In this document: piece by piece, positions 3,690 through 40,074 of the stretch
Numbering within the stretch: the stretch's first letter is position 1
Layout of the letters: the number at the start of each line of letters is the position of its first letter
Assembly: GCA_026710425.1 (NCBI GenBank)
Contig: JAPORB010000073.1
Span: 1-49,124, forward strand
Direction: 5' to 3'
DNA: 49,124 nucleotides
From: Gammaproteobacteria bacterium
GTDB lineage: Bacteria > Pseudomonadota > Gammaproteobacteria > Pseudomonadales > Pseudohongiellaceae
Notes under the pieces: model-generated
Told to the model about the DNA's origin: nothing
The model's database searches: none
What the model saw: the letters and a program-made list of their open reading frames with translations, nothing else
Made by a program: the position numbers and the translations under genes

Positions 3690-3785
3690 TGGCGGAAGAG
3701 GCAGGAGTCGAACCCACCAAGCCTGCTCTTAACAGACTTCACCGGGTTTGAAGTCCGGGCACCCCACCGGGGATGATACTCTTCC
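3690..3785 (-). tRNA. selC: tRNA-Sec (anticodon UCA)
   Basis: Read on the minus strand, the gene starts GGAAGAG and ends CTCTTCC-G-CCA, so the CCA tail is encoded. The anticodon loop is CTTCAAA with anticodon TCA, which decodes UGA. The hallmarks of tRNA-Sec are present: a 6-bp D stem (CATCCC with GGGGTG around a short loop), a long variable arm with a 7-bp stem (AAGTCTG with CAGGCTT), the T-loop TTCGACT, and a total length of 96 nt. The eighth acceptor pair and the pair closing the anticodon stem look mismatched (T-C and A-C). This gene gives the cell its UGA-decoding tRNA and supports reading the in-frame UGA at 13410 as selenocysteine. The selA, selB and selD genes are not in the window. 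Confidence 0.96.
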
Positions 3786-3830
3786 ATAACGAAGTTTAGC
3801 ACAACGTTTTCAATTCAAGGTAACTCAATT
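3786..3830 (-). promoter_or_regulatory. selC: Possible tRNA-Sec promoter
   Basis: Seven bases upstream of the mature tRNA 5' end the minus strand reads TGCTAAACT, an extended -10-like element. Candidate -35 sequences (TTGAAT, TTGAAA) are present, but at suboptimal spacing. This is a weak match by eye. Confidence 0.3.
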
Positions 3831-3908: not shown

Positions 3909-4715
3909 TCAGGGTACCCGATTTAACCCCCAGTCATAATCTGTGTAGCGAATTCCCCTGCTTCCGGCCCCAAGCCGATAAACCTCATTCCTGCTCAATC
4001 CCAGCTGCTCGGAATAATGGGCTAAAAAATCCAATATGGTATGTGATTCAGAACCACTTTCCTCAAAATCCTCCCTGTACCAGTCAAAAATTGGAGAGAG
4101 GTAAAGGCGGTCTGCGCCCGGATAGTTTCTGGTTCGATCAGATAGAAAGCGTTGCGTCGCCTCTTCCAGTTGTTGCTCCAGGCGTGGGCCTATGTATGCC
4201 TCATTGCGCAACGCGGGACAGCCGATGGCGGCACAGTTTAAAGCGAAGTGAATCCTTGGCTCATAATAGCGATCCCAACCCCTAATCATGCCATGCTCAA
4301 TCTCATCAAGTGAGATCTGCTCTCCAAACAGGTTTACAAACTTTCGACGCCAGGCTGCCTTCGGAAGCAAACCAACGTCCCTGATTGAAGAGAGACCAGG
4401 CTCCTGCTGCAACACAAGTTCCACCGTCCAGGCATTATAGGCATTAATCAGGAAGGCAAGCTGATCTTCCAGACTCCAGGCATCAAAATCCCCTCTGTCC
4501 ACAGCGGACAGCTGGCCCAAGTATCTGGTCAACTGCTCGCTTTCACGGAGTACACCGGCATAATCCAGCTGGCTCGCCTGTCCATCTCGCAACACCTTGA
4601 CATGCCGCTCAAGCAACTCATCCCATGGAGAATGATCGACCTGTGCCACAGCCCAGAAACTGAACCCCCACAGGATTGCGATCGTCAACGGTATTAAAGG
4701 TTTCACTGGCATCAT
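3909..4715 (-). CDS. Exported DUF547-domain protein
   Basis: From the ATG at 4715 this is a 268-residue protein. It begins with a signal peptide (hydrophobic segment IPLTIAILWGFSF, likely cleavage after AVA), so it is probably periplasmic. The body matches DUF547: a central NAYNAWTVELVL segment, FALNCAAIGCPALRNEAY, and a C-terminal YLSPIFDWYREDF. DUF547 proteins have no settled biochemical role; some are thought to be peptidase- or transglutaminase-like. The open frame extends upstream to a TTG at 4823, but that extension would bury the signal peptide, so I prefer 4715 (or the adjacent ATG at 4712). The gene lies just upstream of tRNA-Sec on the same strand, 123 nt from it. Confidence 0.8.
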   Translation of the reverse strand: MMPVKPLIPLTIAILWGFSFWAVAQVDHSPWDELLERHVKVLRDGQASQLDYAGVLRESEQLTRYLGQLSAVDRGDFDAWSLEDQLAFLINAYNAWTVELVLQQEPGLSSIRDVGLLPKAAWRRKFVNLFGEQISLDEIEHGMIRGWDRYYEPRIHFALNCAAIGCPALRNEAYIGPRLEQQLEEATQRFLSDRTRNYPGADRLYLSPIFDWYREDFEESGSESHTILDFLAHYSEQLGLSRNEVYRLGAGSRGIRYTDYDWGLNRVP

Positions 4716-4875
4716 TTCAATTTCCAATTCTGGAATAATCTGCCCCACGCTGTACTGAATTTCCCAATACCAACTTGAATCAACTCGCAGGTTCTGCGCA
4801 AAATAAGCTGATATACTCTTCAAAAAAGAGGTAAATCCTAAGTATCATCGAACCGATATGGACTGGACCAAAAAG

Positions 4876-11164: not shown

Positions 11165-11542
11165 TTGAACTTGCCCTCTACCCAACAGAACAAGGAATCT
11201 GGAGCAGATGCGACCAGATTGGACACCGAAATGCCCGATCATAGCTCTTTTATGGGCAGATTACTGGCAGGTGATTATGGTTTTGCGCTAACTTACTGGG
11301 CACTGTACTTTATCGGTGCTGGGCTGTTTTTTGTTTTTGGCAGTCGAGCAGTGGATAGCGGTGCTTGGTTCAGCTACCTTGGCATGGGGGTAGCAATGCT
11401 TGCTTATACCTTCGTACTGATCTTGGGAATTCGATCAGCCTATCGAGGACCTCAGCTATGGAAAGTCATGTCCCGAACCTCATCGATCTTCATGATCATC
11501 AACATACTGGTCGGCATCAGTTCTCTGAGTTTCATCTATTGA
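11165..11542 (+). CDS. Small membrane protein of unknown function
   Basis: This 125-residue protein has a polar N-terminal tail of about 30 residues and three hydrophobic helices (roughly 40-60, 70-90 and 107-124). The start is a TTG preceded by AGGAGT at 11155-11160, a strong ribosome-binding site at good spacing. I do not recognise the family. It lies 119 nt upstream of the thioredoxin-fold gene of the selenium operon, on the same strand, so a functional link is possible but not shown. Confidence 0.6.
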   Translation: MNLPSTQQNKESGADATRLDTEMPDHSSFMGRLLAGDYGFALTYWALYFIGAGLFFVFGSRAVDSGAWFSYLGMGVAMLAYTFVLILGIRSAYRGPQLWKVMSRTSSIFMIINILVGISSLSFIY

Positions 11543-11661: not shown

Positions 11662-13098
11662 GTGAATGACCAAATTTCCCCTAGTTTCTCTCTGGTAGTC
11701 AAAAAAGCCTGTCCGACCTGTGAATTAATTCAGCCGGTAATCAAGCAGCTTGCCGATGCCTTGGATATTACTGTCTATGTGCAAGATGACCCTGAGTTTC
11801 TGAATAGCGTGGTGTCAACCGTTGACGACAGCGAACTAAAGTTCTCATATCACAACAATATTGAAATCGTTCCCACTTTGCTGCGACATGACCCGGAAAG
11901 TCAAGAGGAACGGCTCGTTGGCTGGGACAAATCGCAATGGGAGACTCTCACCGGGCTAAGCGAACTCGGTCAAGATATCAGCCCCTTCAAACCAGGTTGT
12001 GGTTCCATAACTCAGGATCCCGGCATGGAAGAGGTGCTTGCAGCGCGGTTTGAGAGTCAAAAATTACGGGCCAGGCTGGTCAATCTGGCAGAGGCTGAGG
12101 ATATTTTCGAGGCTGGTTATGAGCGCGGCTGGACCGATGGCTTGCCAATTATTCCACCTACTCCAACCCGGGTTATGAGGATGCTTGGGGGTACTGATCG
12201 TCTGGCAGACGAAATCATAGGCCATGTGCCTCCAGATAATGTACCGTGCCCAATAGAAAAGATTGCCATCAATGCCGTGATGGCAGGTTGTAAGCCCGAG
12301 TATTTTTCGACTGTGATTGCTGTGGTTGAAGCCGCCTTGCAGGACAAATTCTGCATGCATGGCTTGCTTTGCACCACCTACTTCTCTTCACCAGTCGTAA
12401 TTGTAAATGGCCCGAAAAGCCAACTTATTGGTATGAACTCAGGTGTCAATGCCCTCGGTCAGGGCAATCGAGCCAATGCCACCATCGGGCGCAGCCTGCA
12501 GTTGCTGATTCGCAATGTTGGCGGCGGCAAACCCGGAGGAATCGACCGGGCAGTGCTAGGTAACCCAGGTAAATACACCTATTGCTTTGCTGAGGATGAG
12601 AGTGACAGCGATTGGCCGACCCTGGCTATGGATCGGGGGTTTGACCGCAAACAATCGGTGGTCAGCCTGTTTGCTGGCGAAGGATTACAGCCTATTCTGG
12701 ATCAGTTGTCTCGATCACCAGTATCTCTGGCCAAAAGCATAGCGGCAAGCTTGCGCACTGTGGCTCATGTCAAGCGTTTTGGCATGGCCGATGCCATTTT
12801 GGTAGTGTGCCCGGAACATCGCCGGGTGTTCCGACAAGGCGGCTGGAACAAGCATGACCTGAGGCAAGCATTATATGAAGAGCTCATGACACCCGGAGCT
12901 GAGTTGCTGAGTGGTGTGGATGGTATGGCAGAAGGTATGCCTGCCAGGCTAAGGGACAAGATGCTAAACAAATTTCGGGACGATGGTCTGCATATTGTTA
13001 CAGCAGGAGGCACAGCTGGCATGTTTTCCGCTATCATCAGCGGCTGGGTCGCTTCCGGCGACAAGGGCAGCCAGCTGGTCTCGCAGCAGATTGACTAA
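11662..13098 (+). CDS. Thioredoxin-fold (CPTC) protein fused to a UGSC-associated domain
   Basis: This 478-residue protein has two parts. Residues 1 to about 105 look like a thioredoxin fold: a beta strand, then Cys17-Pro-Thr-Cys20, and a cis-proline at Pro71 in EIVPTLLR. Residues from about 145 on start with GWTDGLPIIPPTPTRVMRML and contain several conserved-looking glycine and cysteine positions (AVMAGC, PVVIVNGP, GGKPGGIDR). I recall proteins with this DGLPxxPPTP text next to UGSC-family genes, but the biochemical role is unknown. The linker holds PGCGS at 111-115. The GTG start at 11662 is the best in-frame choice, though its ribosome-binding site is weak. Its stop lies 32 nt before the selenoprotein start. 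It could be the redox partner of the selenoprotein; that is an inference. Confidence 0.72.
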   Translation: MNDQISPSFSLVVKKACPTCELIQPVIKQLADALDITVYVQDDPEFLNSVVSTVDDSELKFSYHNNIEIVPTLLRHDPESQEERLVGWDKSQWETLTGLSELGQDISPFKPGCGSITQDPGMEEVLAARFESQKLRARLVNLAEAEDIFEAGYERGWTDGLPIIPPTPTRVMRMLGGTDRLADEIIGHVPPDNVPCPIEKIAINAVMAGCKPEYFSTVIAVVEAALQDKFCMHGLLCTTYFSSPVVIVNGPKSQLIGMNSGVNALGQGNRANATIGRSLQLLIRNVGGGKPGGIDRAVLGNPGKYTYCFAEDESDSDWPTLAMDRGFDRKQSVVSLFAGEGLQPILDQLSRSPVSLAKSIAASLRTVAHVKRFGMADAILVVCPEHRRVFRQGGWNKHDLRQALYEELMTPGAELLSGVDGMAEGMPARLRDKMLNKFRDDGLHIVTAGGTAGMFSAIISGWVASGDKGSQLVSQQID

Positions 13099-13130
13099 AT
13101 AAAATATCGATCAACTAATGGAGGAGCGCA

Positions 13131-13664
13131 ATGATAAATGAAATCTTACTGGATCCCACTGCTGAATTAAGCCCGGTGCAAAAACAGTTGCAACCCAGGC
13201 TAAACAGTCTGGACGGTGCGACTATCGGTCTGCTGGACATCTCCAAACCGAGGGGCAAGGAATTTCTGGATGTAATCGAAGAATCTCTGAGGCAACTGGG
13301 AGCAACTGTAAATCGCTACATCAAGCCCACATTCGCACGCACAGCACCGCATGAATTGAATCAGAAAATCAGTATAGAGTGTGATGCGGTCATCGAAGGA
13401 CTTGCCGATTGAGGCTCATGTACCTCGTGCAGTTTGCATGACATCATGGACCTCGAAAATCGCGGTATACCCTCTGGCTTTGTAGCTTCAGCAGAGTTTA
13501 TTGAAGCGGCAGGTGCCCAGTCCAGATCTCTCGGATTCTATCCCGCAAGTGTTTTCATCCCTCACCCTATTCAGGATCGATCAGATGCAGAAATGACTGC
13601 ATTGGCCAAACAGGCCGTGGACGAGATTATCGCCATGGTCATTGATGAACAATGCATGGCGTAA
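13131..13664 (+). CDS. UGSC-family selenoprotein (in-frame UGA read as Sec)
   Basis: The gene starts at ATG 13131 after a strong GGAGGAG (13120-13126). Codon 94, at 13410-13412, is TGA; the same frame continues [13 protein letters not shown] and runs to TAA at 13662-13664, giving 177 residues. The motif is therefore U94-G-S-C97, with a second cysteine at 100. UGSC-motif proteins are a known selenoprotein family first noticed in marine metagenome surveys; Cys homologues carry CGSC at this site and the function is unsettled. Recoding is supported by a SECIS-like hairpin 18 nt after the UGA and by the tRNA-Sec gene in this window. A plain gene caller would break it into fragments at 13131-13412 and about 13434-13664. 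The family's Sec/Cys pair suggests a thiol-redox or nucleophilic role. Confidence 0.92.
13416..13449 (+). promoter_or_regulatory. Bacterial SECIS element
   Basis: Immediately downstream of the UGA, TCGTGC (13425-13430) pairs with GCATGA (13436-13441) through six base pairs, one of them G-U, closing the 5-nt apical loop AGTTT. A lower helix, TCATG (13416-13420) with CATGG (13445-13449), stacks below a small internal loop. The apical loop starts 18 nt after the UGA and has G as its second base. This fits the published bacterial SECIS model (loop 16-37 nt from UGA, G in the first two loop positions). It should recruit SelB with Sec-tRNA. The pairing was done by eye. Confidence 0.85.
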
Positions 13665-13710: not shown

Positions 13711-14895
13711 ATGACAAAAGAAGCAGTAATCGTAGCCACAGCCCGCACTCCTATCGGCAAAGCCTATCGCGGTGCCTTTAATGATACAGATGCACCTACC
13801 CTTGGTGCTCACGTGATCACAGAATCACTACGCCGGGCTGGCTTGGAATCCGCTGAAGTGGATGATGTGATCATGGGTTGTGCCATGCAGCAAGGAAGTT
13901 CTGGCTACAACATAGGGCGTACAGCGGCCTTGGCGGCGGGATTGCCTGTCAGCGTCTCCGGGATGAGCATTGATCGCCAGTGTGCCTCCGGTATGATGGC
14001 AATCTGTTCTGCCGCTAAGCAAGTGGTGTCAGACAACATGCCTGTCGTTATCGGTGGCGGCTTGGAATCCATCAGTCTGGTGCAGAACGAACATCGCAAT
14101 AGTTTTCGTGCCCAGTCCCCCCTGGTAATTGACAAATCACAACATGCTTATATGTCCATGTTGGAAACTGCCGAGGTAGTCGCTAGCCGCTATAACATCA
14201 GCCGTGAAGAGCAGGACGAATATTCCTTGCAAAGCCAGCAGCGCACAGCAGCCGCGCAACTGGCGGGTGCATTCGATGATGAAATTGCACCACTGCCATC
14301 CAAGATGGTGTATGTAGACAAAGAGACCAAAGAGCAGAGTATTCATGATATTACCCTGGACAAGGACGAGGGCAACCGACCTACGACTACGCTGGAAGGA
14401 CTGGCTGGGCTGAAAACAGTCTTTGAGGGCGGTGTGATTACCGCTGGCAATGCCAGCCAGTTATCCGATGGAGCTTCAGCCAGTGTTGTTATGGACAGCA
14501 AGCTGGCTGAGCAGAAAGGCCTGGAACCGCTGGGTGCCTATCGCGGCATGGCGGTCGCTGGAGTTGAACCGGATGAAATGGGTATCGGACCAATTAAAGC
14601 TGTTCCCAAACTGCTACAACGATTCAATCTTTCCATGGATGACATCGGTCTTTGGGAACTTAACGAAGCTTTTGCTGTGCAGGTGATTTACTGTCGCAAC
14701 GAACTGGGTATCCCCAACGAATTGCTGAATGTAAATGGTGGTTCAATCTCAATTGGACACCCTTACGGCATGAGTGGTGCCCGTATGGTCGGCCATGCCT
14801 TGATTGAAGGTCGGCGGCGCGGCGTGAAGTATGTAGTTTGCACCATGTGTGTGGGTGGTGGCATGGGAGCTGCTGGTCTGTTCGAAGTGTATTGA
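13711..14895 (+). CDS. Thiolase-family acyl-CoA acyltransferase
   Basis: From the ATG at 13711, which follows AAGGAG at the correct spacing, the protein is 394 residues, the usual thiolase size. The catalytic residues are in place: nucleophile Cys91 in DRQCASGM, the NEAFA motif, the histidine in [10 protein letters not shown], and the second cysteine in MCVGGGMG (about 380). It should cleave or form 3-ketoacyl-CoA. The frame is open back to 13642, but that would overlap the selenoprotein and lacks a ribosome-binding site. It starts 46 nt after the selenoprotein stop, so the two are probably cotranscribed. This suggests the selenoprotein acts near acyl-CoA metabolism; that is an inference from context only. 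Confidence 0.9.
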
Positions 14896-38596: not shown

Positions 38597-38855
38597 GGCC
38601 AGCTCTTGAGTTCTTCTCGTGAGAACAGTGGAATCTTCTTGTGTCGGTAAGTTTCAGCATGCCTCGGTGGAGATTATTTTCCTACATTCACCGCAGACAT
38701 TTTTTGTAATCCCGGCATCATTGGCGGCGGTCATTCTAGCATAGACAAAGACCCCTGCAAGATGATGATAACTGATGATATGGTAGTCGAGTCGCCAGAA
38801 GTCGCATCAATACGATGGTTGTGATAGCTTGGGGATTGCCAAACAGGAGGCAAAA

Positions 38856-40004
38856 ATGATCAGAGACCAACAAACCATCAGCCAGCTCATTGATCTGATA
38901 GAACGCTTTGTCAGAGAGCGTCTGATCCCGCATGAAGACAGCATGGCTGAGAATGGCAAATTGCCAGACGACATTTTGGCTGAGATGAAAGCCCTTGGAC
39001 TGTTTGGACTCACCATCCCGGAACCCTATGGTGGTCTTGGACTGACCATGGAGGAAGAGATCCTCGTGTCCATAGCACTTGGCCGCACTTCTCCCGCCTT
39101 TAGGTCCATCATGGGCACCAATAACGGCATCGGCTCTGCCGCCATTGTATTTAATGGCACAGAGGAACAAAAAGCCCGTTACCTGCCAAAGTATGCCTCG
39201 GGGGAATGGATCAGCTGCTTTTGCCTGACTGAACCGGATGCCGGGTCTGATGCCGCATCCCTGAGAACCACCGCTGTTCGTGACGGTGACCACTATGTTA
39301 TTAATGGCACCAAACGATATATTACCAACGCCAAGGTAGCCCACACCTTTAATGTCATGGCTCGCACCAATCCCGACATCAAGGGTGCCCATGGTATTTC
39401 CTCATTTATTGTTGAGCGCGATACACCAGGAATAACCCTTGGTCCAGTGGACCGCAAGATGGGTCAATCGGGTTCCATGACTTGTGATGTGATCTTCGAA
39501 AACTGTCATGTGCCTGCGGAAAATCTGATCGGAGAGGAAGGCGAGGGCTTTATCACTGCCATGAAAGTGCTGGACCGTGGTCGGCTGCATATCTCTGGTG
39601 TCAGTGTCGGCGTGGCTGAACGTTTGATCGCCGATGCCCTTGACTACGCCATACAGAGAAAACAATTCGGCAAGCCCATTGCCGAACAACAGTTGATACA
39701 GGCCATGCTGGCGGATTCTCAGACGGAAACCTATGCTGCCAAATGCATGACTCTTGAAACAGCCCGCAAAAGGGACAATGGAGACAATGTCAGCACCGAG
39801 TCATCGGCCTGCAAACTGTTTGCCACCGAGATGGTGGGTCGGGTGGCCGACCGGGCGGTGCAGATTCATGGGGGTGCCGGGTATATGTCTGAATATGCGG
39901 TGGAACGCTTCTACCGAGACGTGCGACTGTTCCGGCTCTATGAAGGGACCAGTCAAATCCAGCAGATCATCATCGCCCGCAACATGATCAGGGAAGCAAG
40001 CTGA
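38856..40004 (+). CDS. Acyl-CoA dehydrogenase
   Basis: From the ATG at 38856, which follows AGGAGG (38845-38850) at ideal spacing, the protein is 382 residues. The FAD-site text CLTEPDAGSDAASL is in the middle domain. The C-terminal RLYEGTSQIQQIIIARNMI holds the catalytic Glu and is typical of short- to medium-chain ACADs. A TTG nine codons upstream is open but has no ribosome-binding site. It is divergent from the thiolase and belongs to the same degradation block. Confidence 0.93.
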   Translation: MIRDQQTISQLIDLIERFVRERLIPHEDSMAENGKLPDDILAEMKALGLFGLTIPEPYGGLGLTMEEEILVSIALGRTSPAFRSIMGTNNGIGSAAIVFNGTEEQKARYLPKYASGEWISCFCLTEPDAGSDAASLRTTAVRDGDHYVINGTKRYITNAKVAHTFNVMARTNPDIKGAHGISSFIVERDTPGITLGPVDRKMGQSGSMTCDVIFENCHVPAENLIGEEGEGFITAMKVLDRGRLHISGVSVGVAERLIADALDYAIQRKQFGKPIAEQQLIQAMLADSQTETYAAKCMTLETARKRDNGDNVSTESSACKLFATEMVGRVADRAVQIHGGAGYMSEYAVERFYRDVRLFRLYEGTSQIQQIIIARNMIREAS

Positions 40005-40023
40005 GCGAAACCCACTGGTGAGG

Positions 40024-40053
40024 CCAACCCCGTCGACGAAGCACTTGGGTTGG
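40024..40053. terminator. Weak hairpin between convergent genes
   Basis: CCAACCC (40024-40030) and GGGTTGG (40047-40053) pair perfectly around a 16-nt loop, between the ends of the ACAD and universal-stress genes. The loop is long and no T-run follows, so a bidirectional terminator is only possible. Confidence 0.25.
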
Positions 40054-40074
40054 TCATCTTGGGCATACACCAGT

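Follow-up and report, generated by a model that had tools for sequence, protein, structure and literature searches.

The window analysed here is the whole of contig JAPORB010000073.1 (C69; 49124 bases), from the genome of a marine gammaproteobacterium, 3.8 Mb in 258 contigs and listed as 99.95% complete. It carries a gene of the UGSC family of selenoproteins, in which an in-frame UGA almost certainly encodes selenocysteine (Sec), and this gene stands in a row with those for a small protein, a partner protein and a thiolase (Table 1). The following account deals with the recoding of the UGA, with the constant association of UGSC and its partner across genomes, and with the enzymatic function that the pair may have.

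The UGSC gene

The UGSC frame begins with ATG behind a strong ribosome-binding site, contains a single TGA, continues as GSCTSC and ends at TAA. The Sec site has the context DUGSCTSC, in which the UGSC motif occupies residues 94–97. A sequence-only reading of this DNA had picked out these features and named the family, and the assignment is borne out by both family models; the protein scores 139.8 bits against NF041046 (NCBIfam; cut-off 125) and 136.5 bits against PF24696 (Pfam; cut-off 25). Judged by its sequence, the window protein is a member of the UGSC family and differs from it in nothing essential.

Table 1. Positions of the UGSC gene, its recoding elements and associated genes in the window.
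Feature	Position	Strand	Remarks
tRNA-Sec gene	3691..3786	-	ARAGORN; Rfam RF01852
Small gene 5′ of partner	11165..11542	+	membrane protein by eye; no Pfam match; start codon uncertain
Partner protein gene	11662..13098	+	478 residues; thioredoxin-like N-terminal part and C-terminal domain of no curated family
Partner CPTC	11710-11721	+	in N-terminal thioredoxin-like part
Partner C-terminal domain	about 12052-13095	+	~350 residues; no curated family
Ribosome-binding site of UGSC gene	13120..13126	+	GGAGGAG; just 5′ of ATG
UGSC-family selenoprotein gene	13131..13664	+	open reading frame read through TGA; 177 residues, Sec being residue 94
In-frame UGA as Sec codon	13410..13412	+	codon 94
SECIS-like hairpin	13409..13456	+	apical stem 13425-13431 with 13435-13441, loop 13432-13434
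Thiolase (acetyl-CoA C-acyltransferase) gene	13711..14895	+	directly 3′ of UGSC
SECIS: selenocysteine insertion sequence; CoA: coenzyme A.

Recoding of the UGA codon

Codon 94 is almost certainly decoded as Sec by the SelA, SelB, SelD and tRNA-Sec of this genome together with the hairpin downstream, which makes the gene that of a true UGSC selenoprotein. The evidence comes from related genomes, from the Sec machinery and from the RNA itself.

Genome sets of the class (369 genomes), of close relatives (97) and of the phylum (319) were searched, the source genome being counted in each; PF24696 was found in 6, 59 and 5 of them, respectively. Among the close relatives, 87 of the 92 UGSC matches have exactly one TGA, and the remaining five are fragments short of the Sec column, one of which contains a TAG. 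One TGA is likewise present in 15 of the 16 matches in the class, the sixteenth (G337, L077) reading CGLC, and in six of the eight in the phylum, where one match reads CGSC (G585, L139) and one is a fragment. In each of the 46 non-cysteine loci read base by base, two of them probable duplicates, the TGA falls on the UxxC site. Alignment A1 comprises 44 of the 47 UGSC loci; it excludes the divergent cysteine (Cys) form L077, as well as L022 and L023, whose contigs equal G384:C4 and G414:C11 in length and which were taken to duplicate L094 and L098. All 44 proteins conserve the Sec position and Cys97, and UGA occupies the same codon in orthologues of 52–73% identity. The homologues, which on the opposite view should all have stopped at this position, run on through it with UGA or have Cys there. 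The nearest named records are metagenome-assembled genomes, 72–79% identical in the best segment; four are labelled Gammaproteobacteria or OM182 bacterium MED-G28 and one Proteobacteria.

The tRNA-Sec gene already noticed in the window is found both by ARAGORN and by the RF01852 model (66.9 bits, cut-off 47). Genes for SelA, SelB and SelD, whose absence elsewhere in the genome the sequence-only reading had taken as telling against recoding, are all present above cut-off, on contigs C11 (573.8 bits), C25 (375 bits) and C137 (291.4 bits), respectively. A survey of selA in 28 hand-picked genomes (23 with a Sec form, two with a Cys form, and three of the same genus without UGSC) gave matches above cut-off in 20 of the 23 Sec-form genomes and in one of the three without UGSC; the genomes of the two Cys forms, L139 (G585) and L077 (G337, only 75% complete), have no selA match. 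The selD match (C137:27418-28329(-), L011) lies inside an open frame of 760 residues, more than twice the model length, and possibly represents a fused SelD. In the window, a DUF547 gene at 3909-4823(-) adjoins the tRNA-Sec gene.

The strand from 13404 to 13460 forms one long hairpin (−20.5 kcal/mol, z-score −3.23), equalled in stability by 2 of 200 shuffled sequences; its apical loop lies about 20 nucleotides 3′ of the UGA. When the 50 nucleotides from the UGA onwards are folded for all 23 candidate read-through sites of the window, each having 50 codons or more on both sides, the UGSC site is the most stable (−19.2 versus −17.4 for the next). Relatives show selection at the RNA level on the hairpin region, and the SECIS-like element proposed earlier is upheld by its stability as well as by frozen codons downstream of the UGA. 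Alignment A2 covers 33 of the 44 A1 loci, namely 21 of the window's type (type A) and 12 of type B; L078, L081 and nine fused forms were omitted because their hairpins differ. Over the 21 type-A orthologues, the 12 codons that follow the UGA have a mean codon entropy of 0.24 bits, compared with 1.44 elsewhere; of 133 stretches of 12 codons, the six with the lowest entropy begin at codons 92–97, and codons 99–104 (S-C-S-L-H-D; TCG TGC AGT TTG CAT GAC) are identical in all 21. The corresponding values for 11 type-B paralogues (without L079) are 0.62 and 1.29 bits.

The apical stem of eight pairs is 93.1% paired over 31 distinct sequences, versus at most 55.6% for slid versions, and the observed covariation measures were reached by none of 500 shuffles. 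Covariation as such is slight: five of the eight stem pairs are invariant, 17 of the 31 sequences leave the outermost pair open, and two pairs have one sequence each changed on both sides. Slid stems equal or beat some of the measures, with two such pairs at +3 and a score of 0.067 versus 0.042 at +2. It is thus the frozen codons, and not covariation, that carry the case for the hairpin. A different hairpin is present in the nine fused UGSC forms, eight of which have GGTC at its apex (by eye).

A reading of the UGA as a true stop, with the frame beyond it a decayed remnant or an assembly artefact, agrees with the 93-residue open reading frame given by the standard code, but is rejected as exceedingly improbable in view of the protein similarity on both sides of the UGA, the single TGA at the UxxC site in relatives, orthologues included, the frozen hairpin codons and the complete Sec machinery.

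The source genome holds a second UGSC gene (C116:22036-22539(-), L016), of type B, with one TGA and its own partner gene; its product is 30–34% identical to the window protein.

A constant partner of UGSC

The selenoprotein family itself has already been published; what the present analysis adds is the pairing of UGSC with a partner protein across genomes. The partner domain (profile A5, 22 sequences) and UGSC occur in identical sets of genomes, 6 of 369, 59 of 97 (set difference empty) and 5 of 319. In the close relatives, the partner lies within 1 kb on the same strand for 85 of the 92 UGSC matches and 2.3 to 9.2 kb upstream for three; the other four, all partial matches, have no same-strand partner on their contig. 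Open reading frames intervene between partner and UGSC at the split loci (G390, G386 and G425). Of the 44 fetched loci with a partner match, duplicates removed, 31 have the partner upstream of UGSC and 13 have it downstream; ten of these 13 are fused chains. Nine chains (eight in G332, one in G135) unite UGSC and partner in one frame of 497–578 residues with a single UGA, and G337 has a UGSC–partner fusion in Cys form.

The sequence-only reading had overlooked the partner gene, which is immediately upstream of UGSC in the window. Genome G332, of the same class, has nine UGSC copies, of which the eight checked (L068–L075) are fused to the partner domain and have one in-frame UGA each; GGTC stands at the hairpin apex in seven of these eight chains (by eye).

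Each type-A partner aligned (alignment A3, 15 of the 21 type-A loci) has a CPTC near the N-terminus, and each of nine aligned type-B partners has a CxDC at the C-terminus. The N-terminal part of the window's partner matches TraF (E 0.0015) and Thioredoxin_2 (E 0.014), both weakly and below the Pfam cut-offs; the best Thioredoxin_2 value among the partners is 8.9e-5, with matches in five of the 36 aligned, 15 of which have the N-terminal part. The partner domain, searched against Pfam and NCBIfam at E up to 1, gave no family with matches to more than one of its 22 members. Residues invariant among the partners include R277, N285 and E311, numbered as in the window protein. GrdE and PrdA are not among the families that match these 22 domains at that threshold, no genome-wide search for GrdE or PrdA having been made. 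Searches of the partner against sequences of solved structures gave best E values of 0.15 and 0.56, and the fold search of a fused model returned rows that mostly cover residues 21–184, the UGSC half. Kinship between UGSC and the partner themselves was considered and rejected (hhalign probability 2.8).

Gene neighbourhood

The order of small gene, partner, UGSC and thiolase is kept in the window's genus. All 21 type-A loci have the partner, 20 have the thiolase just downstream (exception L080), and 18 have the small upstream gene, the exceptions being L024 and L104, which are cut short upstream, and L080 (another family). A branched-chain-type ATP-binding cassette transporter follows further downstream in 15 of the 21, the window not being one of them; a glyoxalase-like gene in the window is common to two other type-A loci. 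Neighbour scans took in 79 genes near 13 loci and 45 of the 47 genes near eight G332 loci, two very long genes being dropped. Among the matches listed, the most frequent nameable neighbours in the 13-locus set are enoyl-CoA hydratases (7/79) and pyrroloquinoline quinone dehydrogenases (5/79), the latter also accounting for 2/45 near the G332 loci.

Neither promoter-like sites (2 in the window, shuffle mean 5.4) nor terminator-like sites (5, shuffle mean 4.2) are set apart from the shuffles. A larger read-through at 38736-40070(-), open for 445 codons but for two TGAs, overlaps an open reading frame of 391 residues at 38829-40004(+) and was set aside as probably its antisense shadow.

Fold and likeness to GrdB and PrdB

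The predicted model of UGSC (predicted local distance difference test 92.6, predicted template modelling score 0.85) shows five successive strand–helix units and no strand hairpin after the Sec helix. Its fold matches are three-layer folds of the flavodoxin-, response-regulator- and lumazine-synthase-like kinds, none of them close. On this model, the UGSC fold is predicted to be flavodoxin-like and not, as proposed in print, thioredoxin-like. Against sequences of solved structures, the single protein has no match at E up to 10, and the profile gives a best E of 0.017 over 37 positions.

Weak but repeated matches around the Sec site link UGSC to selenoprotein B of glycine/betaine/sarcosine reductase and to PrdB (TIGR01917, TIGR01918, TIGR04483, NF040794, NF040795). 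At E values of 0.1 or lower, 23 of the 44 UGSC proteins match TIGR01917 (best 4.3e-6); the GrdF, TIGR01918, GrdH and PrdB profiles are matched by 17, 10, 7 and 3, respectively. Aligned by hhalign with 13 PrdB-like proteins, two of which carry UGA at the column in question, UGSC (P 5.5e-5) places Sec94 on the Cys/Sec of [C/U]PVC, and both groups have [Sec/Cys]-x-x-Cys at the aligned position. UGSC differs from GrdB and PrdB in being a stand-alone module of about 175 residues that scores far under their cut-offs (13.4 versus 65.45 for TIGR01918), and in pairing with a different domain, without a recognisable partner of the GrdE/PrdA type. Reductases of the GrdB/PrdB kind have a partner proprotein with a pyruvoyl group (GrdE/PrdA). 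In 398 phylum genomes, no GrdB-type match lies above cut-off and 16 lie below it. A PrdB-like protein with UGA at UPVC is present in the source genome (C185:4074-4463(-), L131) and is a further selenoprotein candidate.

Proposed function

Of the readings considered, the likeliest is that UGSC and its partner make up a thiol-driven, two-component reductase of the GrdB/PrdB type with UGSC as the Sec subunit; even so, the grounds in favour and the grounds for doubt are about evenly balanced. What is observed is the evidence of recoding, the joint occurrence of UGSC and partner, a weak resemblance to GrdB/PrdB and the distribution of CxxC; that the two proteins form a complex, how they react and which way electrons flow are inferred. 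A single enzyme in two parts is favoured by the unvarying pairing, by the fusions and by the occurrence of CxxC at either of two places, and the link to GrdB/PrdB together with the position of Sec suggests that Sec attacks reductively and that Cys97 is the resolving residue. In such an enzyme, Sec94 and Cys97 would lie at the start of a helix in the predicted flavodoxin-like fold, and the substrate would be bound by the large domain of the adjacent partner. The attack of Sec would be on a carbon of the substrate, or on some other electrophilic atom, and the resulting adduct would be resolved by Cys97 with formation of a Sec–Cys bridge, by analogy with PrdB and GrdB; such resolution has been proposed for reductases of this type. 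The bridge could then be reduced by the partner's CxxC (CPTC, in the thioredoxin-like N-terminal part). In type A, the neighbouring thiolase suggests that the product would enter acyl-CoA metabolism; around the other types the neighbours vary, which points to more than one substrate across UGSC types.

Several observations weigh against this scheme. The window UGSC scores 19.4 bits against TIGR01917, whose cut-off is 602.2; there is no GrdB-type match in Pfam, and the hhalign probability for the PrdB-like alignment is only 66. No curated family is detectably similar to the partner domain, so that any role of this domain in place of the pyruvoyl subunits GrdE and PrdA is conjectural. The CxxC relay is not universal, since the partner part of all nine fused forms lacks CxxC, and L078, L079 and L081 fit neither pattern. 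No same-strand thiolase of this kind occurs within 8 kb of 24 type-B and other loci, which have varied neighbours, so that no common pathway is demonstrated. Finally, three Sec-form genomes (G392, G135 and G717) have no selA match above cut-off.

UGSC has also been thought of in terms of the thioredoxin fold. As a thiol oxidoreductase or peroxidase-like protein of that fold, it would have the partner either as reductant or as a disulfide substrate; in favour of this, UxxC is a redox motif, and the type-A partner does have a thioredoxin-like part with CPTC. This alternative is nevertheless unlikely, because the model lacks the strand hairpin after the Sec helix and has five strand–helix units instead, its fold matches lie elsewhere, the profile matches point to GrdB-type proteins, and the absence of CxxC from the fused forms tells against it too. 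A carrier or assembly pair for a cofactor or metal cluster, with Sec and Cys as ligands, is more doubtful still; it would have a counterpart in the McrC-like parts of the activation complex of methyl-coenzyme M reductase. The McrC-like domain of that complex (8s7v chain H) is 16% identical to UGSC, with no shared ligand pattern shown, and the match may reflect the common fold only.

The reductase proposal can be taken a step further, if only tentatively. UGSC and its partner could constitute an unrecognised class of selenium-dependent reductases, distantly akin to the Sec module of glycine and proline reductases, with a substrate-binding subunit that belongs to no known family and, in the window's type, a built-in thioredoxin-like relay. 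Such enzymes would operate in marine bacteria outside the anaerobic amino-acid fermenters and would reductively cleave an organic substrate for the thiolase.

Significance

The UGSC family has been in print since 2008, when the passages on selenoproteins in the Global Ocean Sampling survey listed a 'UGSC-containing protein' among the most frequent, with 255 sequences (PMC2398784, Table 2), and proposed a thioredoxin-like fold for it. The UGSC passage of a 2026 review places it among selenoproteins of largely uncharacterised function (PMC13188914). A UGSC/Unknown_1 fusion is described in the text and the legend of Figure S1A of the 2008 survey (PMC2398784); like the fused chains found here, it joins UGSC to an uncharacterised conserved domain, and Unknown_1 may be the same domain as the partner. 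Neither the pairing across genomes nor the GrdB-type similarity appears in the UGSC passages of PMC2398784, PMC13188914, PMC9312934 and PMC7539508, nor is a link between UGSC and GrdB or PrdB made in the UGSC passages of the literature searched, most subscription journals lying outside the search.

Given its constant partner, its likely protein superfamily, the conservation of the gene cluster and the pattern of Cys and Sec residues, an anonymous motif becomes a system of two proteins open to joint expression and assay. If the proposed function is true, chemistry of the glycine and proline reductase type would extend outside its known setting.
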